A stretch of 64,000 bases of DNA from NCBI GenBank assembly GCA_026874595.1, contig CM049310.1, positions 35,465,558 to 35,529,557 on the forward strand, given 5' to 3'. A program made the translations under genes and the position numbers. This document shows positions 22,801 to 63,140 of this stretch, one piece after another (the first letter of the stretch is position 1; the number at the start of each line of letters is the position of its first letter). Origin of the DNA: Sipunculus nudus. Its lineage: Eukaryota > Annelida > Sipuncula > Golfingiida > Sipunculidae. A model generated the notes under the pieces. The model did not search any database and had not been told where the DNA came from. It saw nothing but the letters and a program-made list of their open reading frames with translations.

Positions 22801-25800
22801 ATTAGTAAATTATGTCATTATTAATCGTTGATCGGTGATCAATAAATCCTCAACTTGAATATTGATTTGTTAACAGCTACAAATAAGCCATGCGACAGCA
22901 GCCCGTGCAAGAACGGTGGTCAGTGCACCAACACCAACACTGGTTACACGTGCCAATGTGTGAATGGGTACACGGGTAATAACTGTCAGACAGGTGAGCT
23001 GATTTGTCATAAATACTTCCTTTACGGAACATCATTTAGTTTACCATACTATTTATTCTTACACAAACTGTACCTGGGCCTGTTTTTTACAAACCAACGT
23101 TCATACAACTTTCCAAAAGAAAATGAGAACGGTGCAAACGAAAAGTCAGGCAAGTTGTCTGTAAAAGAAAACTGGAAATGCATTTTGAATAGCGACTCCA
23201 CCTAGTGTGATATCAACTATTTCACATGAATGGTAGAAATGTCACAAGTGTTGTAATTAGATCAGAAAGCACGTATAGACAAAATATAGAGTGAGAGGTT
23301 CGTCTCCCGTCTTTTCCATCTACTTCTCTGAAGAATGGACTGTTTGTGTTTTGATTTATTTTTTGTTAAATATCTGTATGTTCCTTTTCCTGTTGTCCCA
23401 TTAATTCTCCTGGATTCTGTCATCCTCAGCTCCACCTTGTGCCAGCAGTCCATGCAAGAACGGTGGAACATGTACCAATGGCAACAACATTTACACGTGT
23501 AAATGCAAACAAGGCTTCGTGGGGACAAATTGTGAAATTCGTAGGTTTATGTTCACTGTCATGACATCTCCCCATGGTGGTTTTGGAATAAGTTCTTATT
23601 TCTTGAAAATGTGGGACAACATATCAATATTATATATATATGTAATGGGTTCTCAAGAGGGCCGTTGATGTCTGTTGTAACTCTTACACAACTTGTGTTG
23701 CTATTTTTTGCTGAATTGAACAAAGTTCTTTATTCTCCATTGTTTTTTTCCTAGTATGGCTATACTTATCTCTACATTTTGGAGCACAAGACCATTCGTA
23801 AAGTTATTTAACTTTAAAGTATATATAATTGACCTAGTTGTTCCGTTTTATCTTTCGGGGGATCGCATTCTGGCCGAATGTGCACATTTACGATATGGCG
23901 AATGAAGTAGTAGCTCTTTATTCCAGTAAAATCAAGACCCTTGCGTAGTTCATCAAATTCATTCAACACTTTCTGTTTCAGAATGTGATCCTATTGATCT
24001 GGCCTTCCTGCTTGACCAGTCTGGCTCCATAGGCGATGCTAACTGGCCAAAGGTTATCGACTTCGCCGAGAAAGTCGTCGGTGTGTTGATTTTATAGTTT
24101 TATTTGTTCATATTGTAACTTTAATTTATTTTAGTTAAAGGAAAGTTTTCAGTAAAAATATTTAAAAAAGAACGATTCAATACCATTTTTATTAAAAAAT
24201 CGTCCTAATCAGTAAACAGCCTATTGACCAAAAATTCCTTTTGGTATCTGTGGCCATTTAATCGAACTTATGGTATATGTTTAACGTTATATGTTCAGAA
24301 ACTATAAGTAAAACTCTAAAATTCAGTCAACTCGCATCAGTAAAGTATACTCTAGTACGAAGTCATTATCTTGTTCTTCAAAATACTGCAGGTTCTTTTG
24401 AAATTGGGGACACCAAAACCCGTGTAGGCGTGGCAAGATTCGCATCAAACGCTGCTGTGGACTTCCACATGAACAAATACAAAACTCGAACTGATGTCTT
24501 GAACCAAATCAAGGGACTCGTGTATCAGCCCGGTGGAACGAACACCCAGGCAGGCCTTAAACTTGTGCGAGAGCAGATGTTTACTAATGGCAATGGTGAC
24601 CGTGACGGCAGTAATGGATCCCCGAACTATCCTAATATCGCTATTGTGTTCACTGATGGGAAGAGTAATATTTCGCCAGAACAGACAATCCCGCAAGCCC
24701 AAGACCTACAAAATGCTGGTGAGAGATAATTCGGTGGTTATATATATTCTTAAAATCCACCAATTCATCACCTGTGGTTAAGAATTTCCTATGCATTCTC
24801 TCTTCAGCTAATCGGTAAATCCACAAATATTATTAAGATCTTACAAGATTCAATGTTACTTTTTAAAAATTGATAATATAGTTTCTCTGCAAAGAACCTT
24901 GAATTTATTATTGTTAAGAAACACATGTAGCAAAAATTTTACATACACTATAATCGTCTGAGTGATAAAGTAACCCCTGTACTGGAAGGGCCCTGGTCAT
25001 TACAATGAGCTGCTTGAGGAGGAATCGGCAGCTTTCTAATATAAACAATGTAATAATTCTTTCGCGATACGTTATATCGTGGATTGTTATAAAAACAATG
25101 GTATTGCTCTAGATTCTACACTTGTTTCACAAGGTTGCCATATCATCAGTTATCATGAAACAACGTGTGTTTGTTGGGGACAAAAATATTTAACGCAACC
25201 TAATCAATATCTTATCTGAAACTAATTTTATCATTTCATTTCAGGCGTTACTGTGATTTGTGTAGCTGTTGGTTCTGCACAAAGTCTGGATGAGGCAGAA
25301 CTGAAGGCCATCGCGTCAGATCCCGACAGCGAGTATCTGGTACAGAGGACGTCATTCGACGACCTGGATGCCGTCATCACTATCATCTCAGATGCAGTGT
25401 GCTCCGCAGGTGATATACGATTATATACTCTGTAGTTATGTTTGTGTTTGTATAGGGGTGACAGGACATAAACACTACAAAAAACGTATGTGAAACGTAA
25501 TGAAAATTATACCTTGGAGCAGAATGAACTAATTTTGTTAGTTTTTATCGTAGCTAGGGCATGAGATGTAGTTATTTTTCAATTTATGTTTGAATATGTT
25601 TATTTAAATTATGTTAATGTTAAATGCTCAGGGTTGCTGTTTATACATTTTGCTATCTACTTATTGTGTTATTAGATGAGGCTTTACTGTAATATAAATA
25701 AACACTAGCAGGTTTCAATACTGTTCTTCTTGATACAGTCAACAGAACTTGCCGATTCTTGTCTGTAGTTAACACAAACTGCAGTGTTTATATCACTGAT

Positions 25801-40940: not shown

Positions 40941-40971
<31 letters not shown>

Positions 40972-41262
40972 AGGGAGAGAGAGAGAGAGAGAAAGAAACT
41001 CACAGAGAAACAAAGCTAAACAGAAAGAAAGAGAAAACGCGGTAGGGGGGGGGAGAGAGAGAGCGAGAGAGAGAAAGAGAGAGAGAAAGAAAGAAAAAAA
41101 GTAAAGGAAAGAGAAAGAAAGCAAAAGAGAAAGAAAGAGAAAACGCGGAAGGAAAGAGTAAGAAAGAAATAGAAAGAAAGAAAGGGAGACAGACTGACGG
41201 AGACAGAAAGAAAAACTGAAAGAAAGAGAAAAAAAACTGAAAGAAAGAGAAAACGCGGAGAC

Positions 41263-41293
<31 letters not shown>

Positions 41294-41294
41294 T
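40938..41294. repeat. Purine-rich GA/GAAA tract with an internal period of about 105-110 bp
   Basis: Some 350 bp almost free of pyrimidines on the + strand, mixing (GA)n and GAAA units. The phrase GAGAAAACGCGG recurs near 41031, 41137 and 41247, suggesting an older tandem unit of roughly 105-110 bp. It ends about 280 bp before the TATA-like box of the synthase-like gene. Confidence 0.8.
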
Positions 41295-41518
41295 ATCGAC
41301 AATGAAATCGTTCCTGAGGCCAGTATGGAATATAATTAAATGACCGTATGTTAGTATCTTAACCATGAAGTGTATATGGCGTGTGCGATTTACAACGGTC
41401 AGTTATCTTTGAGCGCTCAATTACCAAGGCCTTATCGAGCGCTGACTGATTAACAACGTCCGGTGTAATCGTATCATAAGTGCTGTAAATGGGTCGCTGG
41501 ATGGTCAGATAGGCCGCA

Positions 41519-41528
41519 GTCACGTGAC
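41519..41528. promoter_or_regulatory. Palindromic E-box GTCACGTGAC
   Basis: Perfect 10-bp palindrome 46 bp upstream of the TATA-like box. The sequence matches the USF/MITF/TFEB class of bHLH-Zip sites; use in this organism is inferred. Confidence 0.5.
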
Positions 41529-41573
41529 CTACTGCCCTTTATCCCGAGGTCATGTCCAGGGTTCTAGAGACCC

Positions 41574-41580
41574 TATATAG
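41574..41580 (+). promoter_or_regulatory. TATA-like box of the synthase-like gene
   Basis: TATATAG in a locally GC-richer context, about 134 bp upstream of the chosen ATG. A start site near 41,605 is implied. Confidence 0.55.
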
Positions 41581-41707
41581 CGGCGAAGACTGCTGTATGA
41601 TTGACACTGTTACAGTCAAATTCAGGAGACCATGTTCAGAGCTGGGCCCTCCAGTGGTCGGTGAATCGGATATTATTATATTTTAAAATAAATACATCAC
41701 AGTCAGT

Positions 41708-41732
41708 ATGGCCAATGCAGCGATGAAAAAAG
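41708..41732 (+). CDS. Synthase-like exon 1 (start)
   Basis: MANAAMKK and one base of codon 9; donor GTGAGC at 41733. The 5'UTR probably begins near 41,605. Confidence 0.78.
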
Positions 41733-44700
41733 GTGAGCGAAATTCTTTTTTATCAATAATACATACAACTTTATAATTACTAGGGGTATCTATTTCATAT
41801 GAATTATCTAAAGACATTAAGCATTAGACGGGTTTGCGTAATATTCTGGAAGAGGAGTCAATGATAATCAATCAGGGAAGAGACAGGATGCTCACCTTAG
41901 TTAGACCGTGTGGATGTATAAATCGATTTCCAACAAAGTAATACTCTTAATGATATAATAATTTAAACGTCTTAAAATCAACTGGGAATATATTTGTGGT
42001 TCTATTTATAAAATATATATTTGTTCACTAAAAATTACAACAACATCGGTTTTGATTTTACTTTTTGGAAAATTAAAGTATATTAAAGGAGTTATTGTCG
42101 TAAATATATTATAACTTTGATTGCTTTAACGAGCTACTTGTTTATTGATCTTTTCCAGTCTGCTTGAGGATTGTTCCCGGTTTGCTTGAGAACTGCCAGC
42201 CTCACAGAGCAGCGTCGTCCATGCCTGACAGACTCCTGGGACAGTGCACCGAACGACTTAGACGCATGCGCCGCAACGCCACCTACCAGCGGCAAGAAGA
42301 AATGAATCCATCAGTTCAGCAGCCACACGTCATGTTGAATCATTACCCCAGAAAACTGTTGTCGTTTTGTTCAACTGATTACTTAGGACTTTCAGTAAGT
42401 CTGACATATTAATTATTTTGGCTAAACTCTTTTTTAGTTCATGTGTCTTATATAAAGAATTAAAATATTGCATTTTCCGGGAAGATTTTACAAAAATTAT
42501 ATGTTTCCATAAACACATGAATCTGGCGATATATCTGCAAGAATACCTCAGTAAGTTGCGAGGAAGCATCATCGAACGAAAGATTGATCGAGAAACACAT
42601 CCTTCTTTATGTTAGTGTTTTCGTCAAGACTTATGTTAAATATATTATTATATTATTCCCTGCGTGTTTATGTCGTATTTTTATATATTTATCTTCAGAC
42701 TAACCCCTCTGTCGTGGCTGCCTTTAACAGGTCGACATATGAAACCAACATATCCCCGACGCACAGGACAGGCGGGCCCGTTCAGGTATGTTCTGTGTAA
42801 ATCAATTAATTAATCTTTTTATGCCCCTTGATTATTCGAATATTTCTGGATTTTACTATATTGATTATCTTTGATGCTGATTTTTAAAACAAAGCTATTA
42901 TCTTAAACTCAATCTGTATATGTTTTTTTCTTTCAGAGTGACATACTCGCATTAGAAAGTACGGTATCGGATTTCCATGAACGTGAACAGACTCTGACTT
43001 TTGCGTCACTTGATCAGTGTATGACGTCAACATTTTTTGCGTTGTTTGATAATGATGACGTCATATTTTGTGATGAGAACAGCGAAGGATCAGCCCAGTT
43101 AACATCACGAGCATGCACGGCACAAACGATATCATACATGCATTGCAACTTAAATGGTAATTATCAAACATATCGGTGAAAACAGCTGTCTGTGGTGGTT
43201 GGTCAATAAGACTTCACAAAGCTAAGTTTAGTCAAATCAGATATAAATATAATCAGTTTCGTTTAAAAGTGTATATTTATAATAATATTATTATTTTGTT
43301 TTATTATATTAAATAAATTTATAGATGTATGTTTTAGTTTTAGCAGTTTATGAAGATGTTACAGATGTAAACATTTATATTAATTTTAGCCATTTATGGA
43401 GATATAAAAATGTTATAAAATTTAAAGATATAAAATTAAAGGTTTTACCATGATAATCTATGGTATGGAACAGAGGTCAGTATAATTGCTTATGAAAAAT
43501 AGTTGTCATTAAGTATGCGGCTGTTCATTAATACACTGACATGTATATAAAGACACAGTTTTATTATTTTTCCCCTCATTTTATTTTGGACCTGGAAACA
43601 TGTATTTTTATTTATTTATTTATTATCATTTTATTTTAGATCTGGAAGCACAGCTACTTTCTACTAATAATAAGGGGATGAAGGTGATTTTTACTCAAGG
43701 ATATTATACATCAACTGGAAGAGCAACGAATCTCAGGTTTGTACATTAAAAATGATGCAAATTTTAGAAATATAGTACATACATTTGTCGTTAGATGACT
43801 GATACATCCAAGACACGTTTATCCAGTTGAGGTCAATTGATGCCGAGTATATAAACCTCTAACCAGAAGTCTCTTTAGTACCGGTTATAGGACAGCTGTA
43901 AGCAATTCGGTGTACATGTAAAATCTGTCACAAGATGACATTGTAACATCAATAATATTTTCAATAATCATAGAATTTAAAGACTGAATTAAATTTAAAC
44001 TTTAAAATCAAATAAATATTTTTTTTAAAGAGGAATCTGTAGAATTTTGAGGGATTTGTCAGTGCGGTTCCTTGAATTGAAATGCATGTATTTTTCTTAC
44101 ATCGGAATATTGATTACATCCCTGATGAAGTATTTATACTGGCTGCACAATAAAAAAAACTGCATGTGCATAAAGTATGTGATTATTTTGACACTGTTTT
44201 AAATACAACAGGAAGCTTATGGATCTTGCGGATGAATACGATGCCCTGGTGATCCTGGACGACTCACAGTCAGTTGGAATTATGGGTAGTAATCTCAGGT
44301 AATTTATATTCAAACGCCGAAATATTTCCAAACTTTCTTATCTAATGCCATATATATTCTATCTCAAATAGGACATTTATTTACCCGAAAAGAGTCCGTA
44401 GTATATACAGAGCCACAGGTCACTGCCTTCATTTATCTAGCGGACGGAACGTATTCAAGTGGTAGACGCAGCACTTGTTTTGAGTATATCAGATCCTGTG
44501 TGTTGGATGCCTGTCCTTGTGAGCCGGCGTGATTGTTTCTGTGCATGTGTAACATCATCACTGCCGTGAGTGTCTTAGTGACTGGACCACTGGCTACACA
44601 CGCGAATGTTTCAGCCTGCGAAGTGTATTACACTTAAGCAGGGTGGACCAGGAGGTAAGCAGTCATGATGTAACACATGCACACGGCTTGCTGAAGGCAC

Positions 44701-44952
44701 ATGCACAAAGGCAGTGACCTGGGGCACTGTATTATACTACAGAGCCACAACTTATATACTTATATACTTCTCACCACATATCCGTCTTTTTCTTACATGT
44801 ATTGAAAGTCATCAAAAAAGAAAATTTAAAATACATTTAAAATTTTTATGTTATGTTAACTGCCTATGATTACTTATTGCATTATTTACTTACATGATTT
44901 CGAATGAATCCTAATCATTTTTAATTAGTCACTTGAAAGGATTTTGACAAGG

Positions 44953-45004
<52 letters not shown>

Positions 45005-46686
45005 TTCTTGAATGGACACACACAAAACTGGAACATACGGAACTGTACTTTTACCTCATTGTAATTTTCCAGAGGTATGGAAGAAACTCTTAAAGAAGGA
45101 CAGAGCCGACCCATGTTGTTATTTGGATCACTTGAGCACGCTTTTGGCCAGAGTCAAGGCGCCTACGTCACGGGACCAAGTCAAGTGATTGAGACCATTA
45201 AGGCAACTAACGCCATATATCGCCCAGACTCCGCAGTAGCATTGCACCCTGCAGTGGCAAAAGTTGCAAACTTGGTACTTGATTTTTTTTTCATGCATAA
45301 AGGCAGTTCCTAACAAAGAAAAATGTCAAATCCATATTACTTTGATATATGAATGTCAATGTGGCAAATTTAAAGACTTCTTGTAACCTTTCTAATGAAA
45401 CTGATCATTTTCTTCGTGGTCTGTGAGTTCATGCTTATGGAACATAAATCTTGACTTAAGCTTTAAAATATGAGACTTTTTCACATGCAAAGCCTTCAAT
45501 TTTTATAACGTTCAACCTCAAAGCAAGAAATTTGATAGACGATTTAGCATAACCAATTTACTGTTTCTTTGAGCCAAAGTTTAACTGATCCATAAATATT
45601 ATGCAAATTAGACTTGTACTTTTGTATATTCTTTCTCTAGATATTAGCCAAGAATGGTGGACTAAAGAAAATAGCGAGCTCAGTCCGCGGGAAGGGGTCT
45701 CACCTAAAGAAGGCCTTGAACAGCTTCGGTCTGTTGCCCTTTGTGGACACGCATCCCTCCGTGTCGGTGGTCGTTGGGCATGAGCGGAGAGTGGACCACG
45801 TCATGGATCAGTTGTTAGGCATGTCGTCTGCTTTGTTAATATAGACATGATCCCTGCTTCATTCAGTAAGATACGCATGACCCCCATCTCAAAGTGTGTT
45901 ATGACTAAATCATGAACACCAACATTTAAGATGGTTGGTTTTTTCTATCTCAATGCTATGGAACCTAACGTATAAACAACTCATACCTGATCCATTTAAT
46001 CCGAAAGCCCTACAGTTAGGGTCTGAATATCGATATCGGAATACACGTCAATATCGATTATCGGCTCTGGTCCAATGATCGACTAAAATTGTAAATAGAT
46101 TATAAAATATCAATATTTGTAAGCCAAGGGAGTCTGAAAAACGTATTTAAAAACAGCCATGCTTGTGTGACTACTACCGAAAATGTATGAAATAGCCTTG
46201 TTGTTGCAAAAAAAAGCTTGTTTGTCAAAGAAGTTTTCTATTTATTAGAGCTATTAAAAATAATTTCGGTCCTATAATACACCGAGCGATAAAATCAAAT
46301 ATTCCACCAGCCATGTATAACTGATTAGCTAAGCAAAACGGGATTTTGACGAAATGGAATATACTCTGTACATTTGTGTGCATTTAAAACAATGAAAATA
46401 CAACCATGAAAATGAAAGTAGTGACCGGGTGTGCTTGCAAAGATATAATTTTTGTCTACACCTTGTAGCTGAACGTCTCTTATAGAATTTAATTTTACGA
46501 AAACGCTTTCATATTAGTTTATAGATTATTTGAATTTAAAATAATTGTGATTTTCTGTTACTTATTAGATATGGGCGTACTTGTTTCTCCGGTAAAAAGG
46601 ACAACATTTCCAAATGGTAAGCACATTACTATGTTATATAAATCAGATTAAGCTGTATTTGAATGGGTTTGAATAAAAATTGTTTG

Positions 46687-46730
<44 letters not shown>

Positions 46731-47037
46731 GACTTACATTATTTATTCTAATAAAATGTAAATAAGATAATTATTAATAAGCAGAAATAGATGCTTGTTA
46801 ACTTTTCGAAAATAAAGATATAATGATTGAATCTGACAAAATAACAGATGGAGTGTTTACTTTTTCCGGATGTCTATCTATAATGTTTGTTTTGTTTCAG
46901 GCGCTGCCAGAGTGTCCCTGCACGTTACCGCGGTACACTCGTATGAACACCTGGACCAGCTTATGGAAGCCATCTTAGCAGTGGCCAGAAGATGTAAACT
47001 GCTTGGGCAGTCTCACAGAATACCTAATGCAATATAA
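41708..47037 (+). CDS. Alpha-oxoamine synthase-family protein lacking the PLP lysine (probable pseudoenzyme), 10 exons
   Basis: Exons: 41708-41732, 42159-42394, 42699-42785, 42937-43156, 43640-43736, 44212-44298, 45073-45274, 45641-45818, 46569-46616, 46901-47037; 1,317 nt, 438 residues, close to the family's usual 400. The ATG has a good context (AGTATGG). Family blocks: FCSTDYLGLS (about residue 78), DDVIFCDENSEGS (157-168), LVILDDSQSVGIMG (234-247), FGSLEHAFGQSQGAYVTG (268-285), and a C-terminal VTAVHSYEHLDQL. Known: family members bind PLP through Lys in a T-L-G-K-A-F/L-G motif and contact it with His in DDSH and in a xxHAS motif. Seen here: His273 for the Lys, Gln241 for the DDSH His and Glu166 for the other His. 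Inferred: no normal aminotransfer or decarboxylative condensation. The N terminus is basic and could be a mitochondrial leader, but weakly. Intact frame and splicing argue against a dead gene. Confidence 0.88.
42159..42394 (+). CDS. Synthase-like exon 2
   Basis: Acceptor CTTTTCCAG, donor GTAAGT at 42395. Ends in FCSTDYLGLS, equivalent to the FxSNDYLGL block at the start of the family fold. Confidence 0.9.
42699..42785 (+). CDS. Synthase-like exon 3
   Basis: 29 codons, phase 0-0. Encodes NPSVVAAFNR, then NISPTHRTGGPVQ where the family normally has a Gly-Ser-rich GSGGSR loop; that loop is degenerate here. Confidence 0.88.
42937..43156 (+). CDS. Synthase-like exon 4
   Basis: Encodes the small-domain helix (ALESTVSDFHEREQTLTF) and VIFCDENSEGSA. 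Glu166 stands where the ring-stacking His of the family sits. Donor GTAATT at 43157. Confidence 0.88.
43640..43736 (+). CDS. Synthase-like exon 5
   Basis: Encodes MKVIFTQGYYTSTGRATNLR, aligned with the family's (E/D)G(V/L)(F/Y)SMDG block but without its acidic residue. Donor GTTTGT at 43737. Confidence 0.88.
44212..44298 (+). CDS. Synthase-like exon 6 (DDSQ)
   Basis: Encodes KLMDLADEYDALVILDDSQS. The Asp that contacts the PLP pyridine nitrogen is kept; the following His is Gln241. Confidence 0.9.
44954..45000. repeat. (TA)n microsatellite
   Basis: About 23 TA units in the intron before exon 7 of the synthase-like gene. Confidence 0.9.
45073..45274 (+). CDS. Synthase-like exon 7 (missing lysine)
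   Basis: Encodes LLFGSLEHAFGQSQGAYVTG, aligning without gaps to the family's TGTLGKALGGASGGY block. The Schiff-base Lys position is His273. Donor GTACTT at 45275. Confidence 0.9.
45641..45818 (+). CDS. Synthase-like exon 8, probable GC donor
   Basis: Acceptor TTTCTCTAG. To stay in frame with exon 9 it must end TTAG before GCATGT, a non-canonical GC donor. Reading on instead gives a stop (TAG) near 45,841. Confidence 0.78.
46569..46616 (+). CDS. Synthase-like exon 9
   Basis: 48 nt encoding DMGVLVSPVKRTTFPN, the strand that carries a substrate-loop segment in the family. Donor GTAAGC at 46617. Confidence 0.82.
46690..46727. repeat. (AG)n microsatellite
   Basis: About 19 AG units in the last intron of the synthase-like gene. 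Confidence 0.9.
46901..47037 (+). CDS. Synthase-like exon 10 (stop)
   Basis: Encodes AARVSLHVTAVHSYEHLDQL and a basic tail, TAA at 47035. The usual family sequence here is an R-I/V-S/Q...A...H-T segment, which is conserved. Confidence 0.88.
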
Positions 47038-47328
47038 TGCATCAATTGCCTCGGAGGGTAGGGTTAAGATGGGAGGGGTTCATATTTTAAGGTGGGGCAG
47101 ATGGACATCTAAAATGTGACATGGAGCTAAAGACTTGCTTATGTATTATGCAGTTTTTTTTTTAGAACTATACTATTTTTATCCAAACTCAGGAAAGTCA
47201 GTCCTATCACTTCATTAATAATGGACAGCCTCAAGTTAAACCGACTTTGGGATTCACCAGACCATCAGTTAGCCGACATCGTTTATTATAAATTATATTT
47301 TTCTGAAATGGTCCTGCATAGTATTAAG

Positions 47329-47690
47329 CGGCGTTTACCGGGGACGTGGTATGCGGAACGCGGCAGCAATACGCGGAATGCGGTATAGATTCGCTTGGGG
47401 CATTTATCGGGCTGGGGGTAAAACACTGGGATATGGGCACGAAAACCCGCTAGATCGCGCTGCAACCGTAGGTCATATATATGGTAACCAAAGCACATGG
47501 GCGCTATACCGCGCGCGGTATACCGAGCCATTTCTCCCCTGAAAATTCCATTTTACCGCGTGTCTCCTGCCGCATACCGCGGGCCCGGTAAACGCTTTAT
47601 GATAGAATAACTAAAGCGAAAAAGAAAATCTTTTTCGCATACCGCTAACCGCATATTGCATACCGCGAGTTTGGTAAACGCAGCTTTTAA
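47329..47690. mobile_element. GC-rich foldback (MITE-like) element
   Basis: The left end reads AAGCGGCGTTTACCGGGGAC then GGTATGCGG. Its reverse complement is matched twice to the right: ATACCGCGGGCCCGGTAAACG near 47,574-47,595 and TACCGCGAGTTTGGTAAACG near 47,660-47,680. The interior repeats TACCGCG/CGCGGTA. GC content contrasts sharply with the AT-rich surroundings. Confidence 0.65.
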
Positions 47691-50564
47691 AGTGTACCTG
47701 GTATTTATGTAATGTATAATGTTCGTTAATCCGAAGGATCGATGATCGGCACTTTACAGAGACTGAAGTTTTCGGTTAATCGAGGCATCTCATTATACTA
47801 TATTCATAATTTAAATACGTGCTGAATACGCCTTGAGTCTAGGTTCACTAATAAAGCCAAAGTCACAGGGAATATGATTCATATAGCTTTGCGATACACA
47901 GCCGGGGAAAAGCCTATAAATTCTCAGATATAAAACCCTTAATGTTTTGTTTCACACATTGTGTCTGTGTCAAAATTCTGAAACTTACTTTATGTTATTG
48001 TTTGTGGTATATGATGTAGTAAAGCCTGCACACGCTAAAATGAGTAAAAAAAGACCTCGTGGGCCAAGCCGTGTCCTCATAAGATGAAAAATATGTATGT
48101 AAACCTTTTCAGCTATTTATGCATTGTTTTATTCCCTACAATAATTTTGTATTAAATACAAATAACCTTTCATAAGTTTTGTTGTTCGTCATGCGCACGT
48201 CTGATGAATATTCTGGCAAGCTGATTCAATAGAAAATGCCCAGGGGTCAAACATATATTAAATTACCATTTATTCTTAAGAATATCTCTAGAAACTATGG
48301 GGTATACAATAACAAGGTTTTTGTTTATATTTATACTTTATAATGTTATACTTATATCCTCTCACTCGCATGTCACTGCACTAGTATATATTAGGTAACC
48401 ACGAAATAAATATATAAATATTGCCGAAAGTTGATACGGTGGAAGGGATATTATAGATCTGTTACAAACATCGTATCGTGACAGAAGACCAATCTTTGTA
48501 TCTGCCAGGGGTCGTATCATATTGGCTCGGTGCGGTTTTACTTAAATGTGCAGTGTCCAACCAGAGCCCGACAATTAATAACAAAAAACTCTTGAGGACA
48601 TGTATTTGCAAAACAGATAAGCAATAAAATCACGTTTTATTCAATGATCCATATAAAAATCTTATATAACGAGATGACGTATTGCTTCTGTTTTTTTTTT
48701 TCTGTGGGCAAACTTTATTCCAAAAAGGTACGATGGCATTTTACGGAAGGCACCAGTGAAATCCTAGGAGGTAATCTAAATCACCATAACATATATTTTA
48801 AAGTTAAATGACAATAGACCATTGGCAGATAAGGTTTCACTGTCTCAGCAGATGATCGGGAGATTAAGCTGTATTGGGGCGGCTTAGTTTTAGAGACGGC
48901 TTCGTTTAGACTTGTTGAACAGCGACGGCTGTGTGCAGAGCAACGATTGATGAGGATTCAGGGGGAGGATGTAGTCTATCGTTACGTTCCATAGTGGGTG
49001 CTGTGTTCCCTTATTGTAAACAAGCGTCCAGTTTCGTATTTTCCTTGTAACTCCTACCTTTATTATACATTATAAAGTTGGCATAGAATATATTCCCAAC
49101 TGGTGGCCGATTTAATAGATGCGGTGATACAGATAATAATAAAAAATAACCCAATATCTTTATTTGGTGTTGTTGTAGGATCCTATTAATCTTTGAGGTC
49201 ATGGCGGTTATTTTCATGGCGCGTGGATACGAAACAAGATGCACTGACAGCGATCCGAATGTTTAAGCTGCAATAGCTACAAAAAATATGTTCTCAATTC
49301 ACTTATAGTCCCGTATACTGTTGTTTCCATTCATTGTTCTCATTGGAATAGGGAGATCCGGAGTAAAGGATGTTGCGCATTTATTTATTGATTTAATATA
49401 TAAAATAAATCACCTTTCAGGTGTACTCAGTAATTGGACTTAGCAAGAACAGAATTATCAGTGACAGAGAGCAGATATAATAGTTTTTATTCCATCATAA
49501 CAATATCACAGATGTACCATAACATTAAAAGAAAAAAAGACCACTCTTGGACTCCACACTGCCCTATCAGCATGTGTGAGTCTTAACCATAAATACTTCT
49601 TCGGCATTATAAAAAGTTCAGATTAAACAATTACATTCTTTTCATATTAATTAAACAGGTCAAAATATAAAAAAAATATGGCTCAAATCCCCAAAACTTG
49701 CAAGAAAGTGTTTTAAGGTGATTTCCTGTAAAATGGGGTCCGCTCAATAATATATAAAAAGTTTACTAAAACTGGACTCCATAAAAGTGAATATTTTCAA
49801 GTTGGCGTCCAAGATGGCCGCCAAGACCCTAAACTGGCCATATACAAATGTTTTATCCATAGGAACCAATGAAAACATCTTTATGTAGTCATGTTACTGG
49901 CTTATCCAATTTGGTTTCAAAAATGGCTACCAATTCCTTCAAAATGGCCATAAGTCATTTTTCATCATAGAGTTTTGATTTTGTTATGTGCTCATGGGCT
50001 GCATTTTTTTGCTGTTGTGGAAGTTTGTTCACATGTTATCCATCTATTAAGCGGTAGCGCATGAATTGTGCTTGTCACAGTTTTGAGTAAGTGGTCAAGC
50101 CACCATACAGTTACGTTTATAAAGTTTATATTTTTTCTTGTTTTTATTAAACTGGTGCTTGCTGACGTCCATGGTTGCAATTTCTTATAATTCCAGTTAT
50201 TTTGTTAAACCAGATACATCATTCACAGAGTACAGATGTGGGTGATATGAAGGAGGTTTTCCTGCAAATAAGCGAATTTGTGTTACATGAAGGGGTATAT
50301 TAAAAACAACTTGTTAACCCATTCAAATAATGGGATTTACGGTCTGCTTAAGCACATCACCGTCCATGAAATGCCAAATGTCACCACATACAAAAAATCT
50401 GCCGTGACTGCTGATAGATTCATAAATAAATGCAAGAATACGCCCTATCCATGCATGGGTCAAACGCTGGGCACAAATTATTGGCGATGTTAAAGTTCTT
50501 GAGGGCCATGGCTATGTAATTTCTCCTATGCATGAATAGTGAGATAAACATCGTTCTGCTTTTA

Positions 50565-60517: not shown

Positions 60518-63140
60518 ACAATATCCACAGGTTCTGCTTACGCAATATACATCGACGTATCCACTCACTCAGTACGTATCATAGTGGTGAAGAGGGTTCA
60601 CAATGGCCGATGATATCCGGGATCTCCCGATATGATGTTAGTTTAAGATCGGAAATCGCATCGGATTTTATCGGGAAACATTTGATATCATCTTGAGGAA
60701 ATTTAAATTCTCAAAATACCCGGTATTTTTTTAGGGGGGGGAGGGATAACATCGGGTAACAACAAGATGTTGTTATTATTTAACTCCTGCTGCTTCATGA
60801 GGATGCTTAATTGGGTAAAGTTAATTTTCCTATTAACTGATCATACAGAAGTTTTACATATTAGTGGCTGATGCCAGTCTATATTTTATTTCACTGGAAT
60901 AAAGAAGGGGAGGGGAGTGCGACAATGGGCTAGAACATGTTATGTCGTCTTCCGAGTGTTAAATAACGATGGATATATAACAGGAAAAAAGTTATAAACT
61001 CGCGGAATCGATAGGTATTATACCTAACTGGTTATTACCTTGACTACACTCACGGACATATCACAAAAACGCAGCCTTTTAACTTTCGAAATAACATAAA
61101 TTTTCAAATGGGTTTTCAACTGGTACTTTTGTGCTTGTTCCAGGCCCCTCGTTCGTAATTTTGCTAAACCTGAAACTGTTTCATTATCAGAGCCGGAAGT
61201 GTAATCCCTTCTCTCTGTTCAACCAAGACCAATACAAATTGCTCCGAATACCGGCTGAAGCATAGCTGTGAACCGAACCCTTTTGGCCGTGACCAAACTT
61301 ATAAGGCTCAGAGCGCTGAAATATGCCTTTGAAATATACGTTTCCGGTACAAAAAAAATGGGGTTGGTGTTATCGGCGAAAAAGAGGCTTATAAATGAAA
61401 TAATGAAAACATAAGATTGAAGAAGTCAGTGGTTTTTTGTTTACAAATAACTATATTTTTTTCTTAAAGCAACCCTAACATTACAATACATTAAATCAAT
61501 ACAATTACACAATATAACAGCGGTATAACAACAAATCAATACAATCACACAGTAAAATAAACAAAGTGCACAGTACCTGATACCACCACTGTCCAAACGA
61601 TTAGTCCTTTTAAATGTAATACGGATGTAAAGTCCACACAAACTCTCCCGGAGAATAACAGTCCAATGTAAAGCTCTTTGTAACAATCCAGAAAGGAAAC
61701 TTGAGGCAGCCAGCACCAAATTATATAGAGTTATTAATAGTAGGATCCCTGAAATTACAGGATAATCAGACAGGTCCCACAAACTGACATAAACACGTTT
61801 GTGTCCGCCGGAATATTCTCTCCTCTCTCTCTCGGCTTAAAACACAGCCCCCTATTTATAACCTCTCACCCCAAGCTGAGAATTTTCCACTTCTCGAAAA
61901 GTCTAAAGAATCCAACATAACACACAGTAAAGACGCGTTACAGGAATCGTCTAGAAAAACATCGCTGTGTCTCAACATATAAGGGTTCACACGTGAGCTC
62001 GCCCCGGCTCGGCCAGGCGAGAAAGCCCCAAGCCAGCATGTCAACGAGAATTCAACCAGTACGGATTAAACTGAGAATGCAATATGCGGCCAGACACGGG
62101 CGCTACAACACGAGTTACGCCCGTGTCACACAATAAAAACGTCACCTGTAACAAAATTTATTCAACAAAACCAGCGATGCTGGCTCAAAGGACCCAAAGC
62201 AAGCAAATAAAGTGTTGTGCGCATGCTCGTAGGAACTGTCTAGTACGTACTAAGGTACCTTTTTGAGGGGCCCAATCACCTCTCTGACCTTTATAAACTA
62301 AAAGTAATCACTTGGAGCTTTTATAAAAATATGCTAGAAAACGTGAATATTACCGCACACAGGCTGCTTGTTTTGTTTATATCAACGTGTTTCTAATATG
62401 TGGGGTCAGCCAAAATAATCAAAACAAATTCAACAAGGGCTTCTGGTGGCAAGCCAGATAAGCCAGAGCTTTTCAAATGGCGTTTTGCAACAAGTGATCT
62501 TTCTTCCTCGGCATATATGCAACCTACCACCTTAGGTTATATGTTTTCCCGCTTGTCAACATTGCTGTGTTTACGAACACGTTGTTGATAAACCAGTTCA
62601 TACATCCTTCACGGAGGCGTAAAAGAATTTTTATTAAGAAGAATTACCCTAATATACTTATATATATATAATATCCTAAGATCACTTATATATAAACAGA
62701 AGAAACCAGAATCACATAAATTATTTTTTCATAAGGCAGGTTAATGGGCACCTATAAACACTTACCTGAATTGCTTTCAGTGATGGGGGCGGGGCCCTGA
62801 CCAGAGCAACGGCAAATCCTCGCTCTTTTGATTTCATCTTCATCAGTTCGTAGACAGCTCTGCTCCCGCACCGTGCAACCCTATTGTAGATAATCTGCGG
62901 CGTCGGGTCGGCCTGCAGGACTGCTCTCCACCGTTTCTCTTCCCAGTAACCGTATTCTGCCTCTACCAGTTCTTTCTTGCGCATTTCCACCCTCCTTTCC
63001 GGTAAGTATATTCTGTCGGGCTCCCTCTCCTCAACAAACTTCAGGTCGTAGTTTCCCAGCATTTGTTTGTGCTTGCTCGCGATCAGGAACACCAACGTCT
63101 GGAACCCAATCAGGATCACCAACAAACGCCACGTGATCAT
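52084..63140 (-). CDS. UST: Uronyl 2-O-sulfotransferase-like enzyme, 6 exons
   Basis: Exons in transcript order: 63140-62766, 58556-58474, 54928-54831, 53885-53783, 52802-52645, 52244-52084; 978 nt, 325 residues. Family role: transfers sulfate from PAPS to the 2-O position of uronic acid in glycosaminoglycans, in the Golgi lumen. Seen: an N-terminal membrane anchor (residues 4-21, LLVILIGFQTLVFLIA), a basic stem, IIYNRVARCGSR (83-94, 5'-phosphosulfate binding), IRHMLYLDF (143-151, with the probable catalytic-base His145), YINLIRDPYERLVSRFYY (160-177, 3'-phosphate binding), and a C-terminal LLLEYKFYHYVEKRF. The CGSR motif favours uronyl over heparan 2-O-sulfotransferase. It is shorter than vertebrate UST (about 400), mostly in the stem. 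Sequons at Asn128 and Asn185. Odd: Arg90 replaces the usual Lys. The start may extend upstream, since an acceptor precedes the ATG. Confidence 0.87.
52645..52802 (-). CDS. Sulfotransferase exon 5
   Basis: 158 nt encoding ALEKAKKNVAEHYLVVGVAE then LEDLVPSYFSGLSSMYDFY, the helix and strand VG(I/V)xE...LE block of the family. Donor GTAAGT. Confidence 0.9.
53783..53885 (-). CDS. Sulfotransferase exon 4
   Basis: 103 nt encoding SYDVCIKRRDKRCWGHNIFT then SQLRFFCGYDEIC. Three of the four Cys match the disulfide-bearing loop of UST. Donor GTGAGT. Confidence 0.87.
54288..54300 (+). promoter_or_regulatory. CTCF-like core motif
   Basis: CCACCAGGTGGCG matches the bilaterian CTCF core consensus. It lies in the intron between sulfotransferase exons 3 and 4. 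Binding is inferred from the motif alone. Confidence 0.35.
54831..54928 (-). CDS. Sulfotransferase exon 3
   Basis: 98 nt encoding FERKPIYINLIRDPYERLVS then RFYYEALQAGRN; the PAPS 3'-phosphate site. Acceptor TTTATTTCAG, donor GTAAGT. Confidence 0.9.
55230..56700 (-). repeat. Decaying tandem array inside the 2.7-kb element
   Basis: Six related units, each marked by TCTCTGTTACCCATATTCT or a variant near 55371, 55718, 56062, 56309, 56481 and 56644. Unit length falls from about 345 bp to about 165 bp along the array. C-runs recur at the same place in several units. Confidence 0.75.
57381..57587. mobile_element. 207-bp MITE nested in the 2.7-kb element
   Basis: GGCAAGAAGCCCCGGTTGTT at the left is matched by GGACAAGAAGCCCCCGTTGT (reverse complement of the right end). 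The similarity continues through a shared CCGACAGCCATGG, about 36 bp of inverted repeat. Confidence 0.8.
58122..58189. repeat. (CA)n(TA)n compound microsatellite
   Basis: About 16 CA then 17 TA units, in the intron between sulfotransferase exons 2 and 3. Confidence 0.9.
58474..58556 (-). CDS. Sulfotransferase exon 2
   Basis: 83 nt, acceptor TTGTTGTAG, donor GTAAGT. Encodes AANFTESFMNVKKPLVYIRH then MLYLDFS; carries the His of the R-H catalytic motif. Confidence 0.85.
58935..59225 (+). repeat. Diverged direct repeat, copy 1
   Basis: Shares with 59917-60200 the anchors CGATGTCCGTGTTTACT, AAATAGTTGATGTC, ACAAAAGACAA and GTGATAAATTAC-type blocks. Not recognised as a known family. Confidence 0.7.
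59917..60200 (+). repeat. Diverged direct repeat, copy 2
   Basis: Second copy about 980 bp downstream of the first in the same orientation, within intron 1 of the sulfotransferase gene. Confidence 0.7.
60462..60515. repeat. (TA)n microsatellite
   Basis: About 27 TA units in intron 1 of the sulfotransferase gene. Confidence 0.9.
61440..62131 (-). mobile_element. Probable solo LTR of a gypsy-type retrotransposon
   Basis: On the minus strand it starts TGTGACACGGGCGTAACTCG and has a core promoter TTATAAATAGGGGGCTG near 61,850 followed by a GA-rich stretch. That is the layout of an invertebrate Ty3/gypsy LTR. The 3' boundary is uncertain. I found no primer-binding site, gag or pol nearby, hence solo. 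Confidence 0.5.
62766..63140 (-). CDS. Sulfotransferase exon 1 (coding part)
   Basis: 125 codons from ATG at 63140 to KAIQ, donor GTAAGT. In transcript sense TTTCAG lies six bases before the ATG, so a 5'UTR intron or an upstream in-frame exon is likely. Confidence 0.85.

Follow-up and report, generated by a model that had tools for sequence, protein, structure and literature searches.

A lysine-less alpha-oxoamine synthase homologue in Sipunculus nudus, most likely derived from glycine C-acetyltransferase

A gene at 41708-47037 on the forward strand of the window, a 64,000-nucleotide stretch of the Sipunculus nudus genome (C5:35465558-35529557; the assembly comprises 1.43 Gb in 153 contigs, bacterial contigs among them), encodes a protein which, judged by its sequence, is a homologue of the alpha-oxoamine synthases (AOS) and closest to their KBL/glycine C-acetyltransferase (GCAT) branch. 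The Lys expected to form the Schiff base with pyridoxal 5'-phosphate (PLP) is His in this protein, and four other active-site residues are changed as well. We consider it reasonably probable that this is a catalytically dead protein of the AOS fold that arose from GCAT and now acts without catalysis, possibly in the mitochondrion, either by binding alone or, more likely, by partnering or regulating a relative that carries the Lys. A pseudoenzyme had also been proposed in an earlier sequence-only reading of this DNA and, given the several cofactor residues lost, it is the likeliest and best available interpretation. That the protein is produced, where it is located, with what it pairs and what it does are points that we infer.

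Family assignment

The AOS homology and the intact reading frame given in that reading hold up. The spliced gene has 438 codons without a stop, and the best NCBIfam match of its product is glycine C-acetyltransferase NF005394 (E 1.2e-57 over residues 34-426), followed at lower scores by bioF (165.2 bits), TIGR01825 (158.8), ALAS (144.2) and bacterial serine palmitoyltransferase (SPT; at most 119.9). Pfam assigns Aminotran_1_2 (PF00155, E 1.4e-19 over 74-418), and KBL 3tqx is the top match among solved chains (E 3.4e-41). The KBL profile is also the best match for three relatives in the host genome, here named AOS-B, AOS-C and AOS-D. All four proteins score below the equivalog cut-off of 460 bits for NF005394 (window protein 195.5, AOS-B 382.1, AOS-C 319.0, AOS-D 214.4), and the other NCBIfam matches of the window protein are likewise far under their curated cut-offs. 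Identity of the window protein is 27% to AOS-B, 25% to AOS-C and to host GCAT, 24% to E. coli Kbl, 22% to AOS-D and 18% to host SPTLC1. None of the 28 pattern matches obtained for the window protein in non-animal genome contigs was a relative, and an alignment query of viral contigs gave two relatives among eight pattern matches, at 26-27% identity.

Changed and retained active-site residues

Residues were mapped by alignment to the numbering of E. coli Kbl. In the window protein H273 stands at the Schiff-base Lys (Kbl K244), Q241 at the His of the DDSH motif (Kbl H213), with loss of the O3' His, and E166 at the stacking His (Kbl H136), where E166-G-S replaces His-Ala-Ser. These three changes had been reported before, and the spliced model and its codons reproduce them exactly as numbered. 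Two further losses are T81 at Kbl N50 and S399 at Kbl R368, positions which we take to contact the substrate carboxylate. Kbl D210 and R366 are kept as D238 and R397, and hydroxyls remain at Kbl S185 (T213), T241 (S270) and S110 (S140). The position of Kbl R80 depends on the alignment used (R110 or a His in the window protein) and was set aside.

Kbl N50, H136, D210, H213, T241, K244, R366 and R368 are each unchanged in 80/80 bacterial relatives (the best 80, KBL-like, with all loci fetched by two patterns), the counts for Asp210 and His213 being biased because one fetching pattern spans both. The roles of several counterparts in bacterial SPT are described in the parts consulted of a review (PMC6148460): His159 stacks, starts a strictly conserved His-Ala-Ser and is required for PLP binding; His234 contacts the PLP hydroxyl and Asp231 the pyridine nitrogen; Lys265 forms the aldimine; and Arg378 and Arg390 contact the substrate carboxylate at different steps. 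Lacking the Lys, the window protein would be unable to hold PLP as an internal aldimine. The loss of both His and of the residues at N50 and R368 makes AOS chemistry very unlikely, and a Claisen-type condensation is very probably impossible for this protein.

Gene model

Splicing of the window DNA gives ten exons encoding 438 amino acids. The gene has nine introns and 18 splice sites, one of them a GC donor, rather than the "ten splice junctions" counted earlier. Its features are as follows, all on the forward strand; the TATA-like element and the polyadenylation signal are motif matches only.

41573-41579, +, TATA-like element upstream of the gene
41708-41732, +, exon 1, start codon and phase-1 donor, placed from the ATG and splice sites; its 8 residues are without homology
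42159-42394, +, exon 2, possible presequence and N-terminal domain with CSTDYLGL; T81 at Kbl N50 (codon 42374-42376)
42699-42785, +, exon 3, 87 nt, equal in length in AOS-B and AOS-C (GCAT 90)
42937-43156, +, exon 4, 220 nt as in AOS-B, AOS-C, AOS-D and GCAT; E166 at the stacking His (GAA, 43084-43086)
43640-43736, +, exon 5, 97 nt as in GCAT (AOS-B, AOS-C and AOS-D 94); GYYTSTG replaces GVFSMDG
44212-44298, +, exon 6, 87 nt; LDDSQ with D238 kept and Q241 replacing His (CAG, 44267-44269)
45073-45274, +, exon 7, GSLEHAFGQSQGAY; S270, H273 at the Schiff-base Lys (CAC, 45137-45139) and A307 at Kbl S276
45641-45818, +, exon 8, 178 nt, equal to the 102 and 76 nt exons of AOS-B, AOS-C and AOS-D fused; ends in the GC donor
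46569-46616, +, exon 9, 48 nt, equal in AOS-B, AOS-C and GCAT (AOS-D 39)
46901-47037, +, exon 10, AARVSLHVTAVH; R397 kept, S399 at Kbl R368 (codon 46915-46917), stop codon
47850-47855, +, first AATAAA past the stop, a possible polyadenylation signal

A custom spliced aligner, given E. coli Kbl as the query for the region 41001-48000, returned identical inner boundaries for exons 2-10; this alignment stops short of exon 1, the start of exon 2 and the end of exon 10. The donor at 45818/45819 is GC instead of GT, and splice sites are usable across the ten exons. Since the aligner rules permitted GC donors in advance, at a penalty, recovery of this donor is not fully independent, and its column and phase (383/1) match those in the models of AOS-B, AOS-C, AOS-D and GCAT. 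Exon 6 is identical to AOS-B at 14/28 residues. The N-terminus of the window protein is basic (MANAAMKKVCLRIVPGLL...) and by eye resembles the sequence upstream in AOS-B; it may be a mitochondrial presequence. Directly upstream of the gene lies a GA-rich low-complexity tract with a repeat of about 106 nt (40941-41293).

Some features of the gene would fit a maintained coding sequence. Shuffles of the same bases contain 22.8 stops on average (fewest 7) and 0/20000 are stop-free, against no stops in the 438 codons of the gene, and GC content at third codon positions is 0.49 versus 0.30 in the introns. A neutral copy would be expected to break, so an unbroken gene at no more than 28% identity to any row of our tree is an indirect argument for constraint.

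An alternative exon restoring the Lys, named in the sequence-only reading among the results that would overturn it, was sought in the window and rejected as a candidate. In tblastn searches with 14 AOS sequences (AOS-B, AOS-C, AOS-D, GCAT, a partial ALAS-like model, E. coli Kbl, BioF, six symbiont frames and SPTLC1) the matches fell on the known exons or overlapped them, and elsewhere in the window E was at least 0.71. Introns 6 and 7, scanned in all three forward frames, gave no match to a Lys-motif pattern.

Intron positions and descent

The introns of the window gene lie at alignment columns and phases 88/0, 118/0, 193/1, 226/2, 255/2, 323/0, 383/1 and 400/1, with another at 8/1 near the start. 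Eight of the nine coincide in column and phase with introns of AOS-B, AOS-C and GCAT, and seven with those of the shorter AOS-D model. Intron 357/0, present in AOS-B, AOS-C, AOS-D and GCAT, is missing from the window gene, and 284/1 occurs in GCAT alone. The partial ALAS-like model has four introns and shares none with the window gene. These counts use the final models. Queried with Kbl, the aligner set other boundaries at exons 7-8 of AOS-B and near the C-terminal exons of AOS-C and AOS-D; the GC-donor rule was widened, by which exon 7 of AOS-B ends at GCGAGT, and the genes were queried again with AOS-B and with their own first models. Junctions of GCAT and the window gene come from the Kbl query alone.

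In a tree of 25 rows, including 12 of the 80 bacterial rows and omitting two partial symbiont rows, a branch with support 88/88 (90% of 200 bootstraps) separates the window gene, AOS-B, AOS-C and AOS-D from the rest. Together, the shared introns and this tree suggest that the window gene most likely arose by an old duplication of GCAT, in a KBL-like group with AOS-B, AOS-C and AOS-D. Within the group, the approximately unbiased (AU) test does not reject a pairing of the window gene with AOS-D (p 0.17); the tree instead joins AOS-D to AOS-C, both on long branches and with a warning from the tool. The window protein and AOS-D have S, F and A in common at Kbl 241, 246 and 252. Either one loss of the Lys shared by the two or two separate losses would fit these results. 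Rare residues shared with the window protein number eight for AOS-D, six for AOS-C and four for AOS-B, and the other three host pairs share 14, 15 and 15.

Relatives in the host genome

Searched with the window protein, the genome returned the gene's own exons and no close copy. The host set was taken from searches with AOS-B, AOS-C and AOS-D as queries, and counts of relatives are lower bounds. AOS-B (C5:75.59-75.60 Mb) and AOS-C (C9:21.63-21.65 Mb) keep the Lys, both His, the Asn and the Arg; AOS-C has Gly at Kbl 276. AOS-D (C8:16.374-16.381 Mb) is a second Lys-less copy, with Asn in place of the Lys (SLSNAFG versus TLGKALG) and one His lost (DDRLG versus DDSHG); it keeps the His of the HAS block and the Arg and also has Gly at Kbl 276. 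Its model comprises nine exons in an open frame at about 842-7667 of C8:16373001-16381500; an N-terminal exon was not found, so the Asn position lies outside the model. That AOS-D also lacks the key residue suggests that the Lys-less copies may have taken on a new job.

GCAT-like exons occur at three places on C14 within about 0.17 Mb (26.96, 27.02 and 27.12 Mb), and the copy at 27.12 Mb, modelled in full, is canonical. A partial AOS-C-like copy, with matches to some exons, lies on the opposite strand at C9:21251787-21255350 (about 21.25 Mb). By eye we name ALAS at C1:58.8 Mb, SPTLC2 at C3:16.19 Mb and SPTLC1 at C5:2.618 Mb. The last (C5:2615001-2622000, from 2667) is an intronless frame of 496 residues, unlike the other modelled host AOS genes, and is possibly a retrocopy. 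Contigs of bacterial type in the assembly carry genes for aminotransferases and AOS, present in as many as nine copies with equal frame length and near-equal scores, as if several symbiont or companion strains had been co-assembled with the host.

Possible role of the window protein

In the scheme that we favour, duplication of GCAT would have given rise to a small host group comprising AOS-B, AOS-C, AOS-D and the window gene, and the window protein would retain the AOS pattern without the PLP internal aldimine. By way of its dimer fold it could pair with AOS-B, AOS-C or GCAT, or it could bind a ligand alone, perhaps in the mitochondrion. A catalytic paralogue had been named as a partner to look for, and AOS-B, AOS-C and GCAT are Lys-bearing candidates in this genome. 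SPT is a precedent for the usefulness of a pairing of this kind.

Several observations weigh against this scheme. Identity of the window protein to the other 14 alignment rows is 18-27%, with a maximum of 28% in the tree rows. Only 29/81 KBL-invariant columns (gaps excluded here and below) are kept, which means that the whole protein has diverged and not just its active site; the counts are 61/82 for AOS-B, 46/78 for AOS-C, 38/71 for AOS-D, 82/82 for GCAT, 33/81 for SPTLC1 and 45/81 for E. coli BioF. The end branch of the window gene is very long (8.83), which, like the low identity, fits relaxed constraint too. The 88/88 support is under the level starred by the tool with long branches meeting in the tree, and a tree pairing the window gene with SPTLC1 is not rejected by the AU test (p 0.24). 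The Ala at Kbl S276 weakens the case for a shared site of the SPTLC1 kind. Finally, the pocket is partly kept: D238, S270, T213 and S140 are retained or conservatively changed, so that the protein could bind PLP non-covalently or catalyse a new reaction.

The alternative that survives best, possible but doubtful in our view, is an obligate heterodimer with AOS-B or AOS-C, in which the window protein would lend residues or stability to the active site as in an SPTLC1-like half-site. Lys-bearing relatives are at hand in the genome, and host SPTLC1 likewise shows T241S and G243E and lacks Lys244. Kbl S276, presumably the Ser that contacts phosphate across the subunits, is kept in host SPTLC1, whereas it is Ala in the window protein; this argument is weak since AOS-C, which keeps the Lys, both His, the Asn and the Arg, has Gly at the same place. 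SPT is indeed a heterodimer of Lys-less and Lys-bearing AOS subunits, yet the parts consulted of the SPT review call it unique in the family (PMC6148460). A further reading, rather unlikely in our estimate, is that in animals of this lineage GCAT has given rise to a second, SPT-like AOS system of heteromeric acyltransferases with AOS-B or AOS-C paired with the window protein or AOS-D, the product being left unspecified.

It is improbable, but chemically conceivable, that the window protein catalyses a new reaction in which H273 serves as acid or base on non-covalently bound pyridoxamine phosphate or PLP, as in the sugar 3-dehydratases ColD and E1. ColD itself falls in a different branch of this fold. 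Replacement of Lys by His is what distinguishes ColD/E1 from the aminotransferases, and in those two enzymes the His acts as catalytic base, according to the parts consulted of PMC8987622; a new reaction is possible for the window protein on this ground, and D238 and the hydroxyls of S140, T213 and S270 would fit it. However, the window protein has also lost both the stacking and the O3' His, along with the residues at N50 and R368, and AOS-D has Asn at the Lys position, so no His is common to the two Lys-less copies.

We give similarly little weight to a decaying gene, that is, a pseudogene or relaxed copy whose function was lost recently. The very long branch and low identity would agree with decay, and decay of copies in this family is suggested by the partial AOS-C-like one at C9:21.25 Mb. 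Against this, the frame is open and the splice sites usable over ten exons at no more than 28% identity, with no stop-free shuffles, and such divergence would have taken long enough for stops to be expected in a neutral copy. A wrong exon choice or an assembly error masking a Lys-bearing enzyme has next to no probability: the GC donor and an exon 1 without homology support would allow it, but the inner junctions match those of relatives in both column and phase, the 14 AOS queries found no second Lys-bearing exon 7 in the window, and five separate positions are changed, which makes assembly error very unlikely as the cause of the Lys loss.

Other features of the window

Two further observations concern the surroundings of the gene. 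Domains of the EGF-like and von Willebrand A types are encoded at 22855-24729 on the forward strand and may belong to an extracellular matrix gene. A frame of 139 amino acids at 62721-63140 on the reverse strand resembles by eye the start of a 2-O-sulfotransferase (IIYNRVARCGS), with no Pfam match at 0.001.

Comparison with known systems

The window protein is most like GCAT and KBL, which give its best profile and structure matches, and the window gene has eight intron places and phases in common with host GCAT. It differs from them at five active-site positions (the Schiff-base Lys, the stacking and O3' His, N50 and R368), in GYYTSTG versus GVFSMDG, and in the absence of the GCAT introns at columns 284 and 357. 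AOS-B, AOS-C and AOS-D have the common intron pattern and lie on the same side of the tree branch; unlike the window protein, AOS-B and AOS-C retain the Lys, both His, Asn and Arg, and AOS-D retains the His of the HAS block and the Arg. The ColD/E1 dehydratases also have His in place of the catalytic Lys in an aminotransferase fold (PMC8987622, in the parts consulted), but there the His is known as the catalytic base, and in the window protein it is known from the sequence.

A search restricted to the PMC literature returned nothing on oxoamine synthase pseudoenzymes, on pyridoxal-related serine palmitoyltransferase pseudoenzymes, or on molluscan glycine C-acetyltransferase paralogs. The present analysis adds two residue losses, a likely origin from GCAT, another Lys-less copy and a set of Lys-bearing candidates to the earlier reading. 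If annotated solely by homology to PF00155 or KBL, this gene could be mislabelled as an aminotransferase or acetyltransferase.

The closest precedent is SPTLC1 (LCB1), and the earlier comparison with it holds in part. The two proteins have in common an AOS pattern without Lys, Ser for Thr and Glu for Gly (SMEN and SLEH) and the loss of both His. They differ in that the window protein is 18% identical and has lost the presumed trans Ser, and host SPTLC1 is an uninterrupted, separate frame; profiles and introns derive the window gene from GCAT/KBL, with the AU result above leaving the SPTLC1 pairing unrejected. Host SPTLC1 retains the residues at D210 and R368 in both alignments, which differs from the review account, in the parts consulted, of an SPT1 without analogues of Asp231 and Arg390 (PMC6148460). 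The same parts describe SPT as the sole heterodimeric AOS, with one subunit Lys-less. If our interpretation is true, a KBL-derived group in which two copies bear the Lys and two lack it would add a second instance of cofactor loss to the family.

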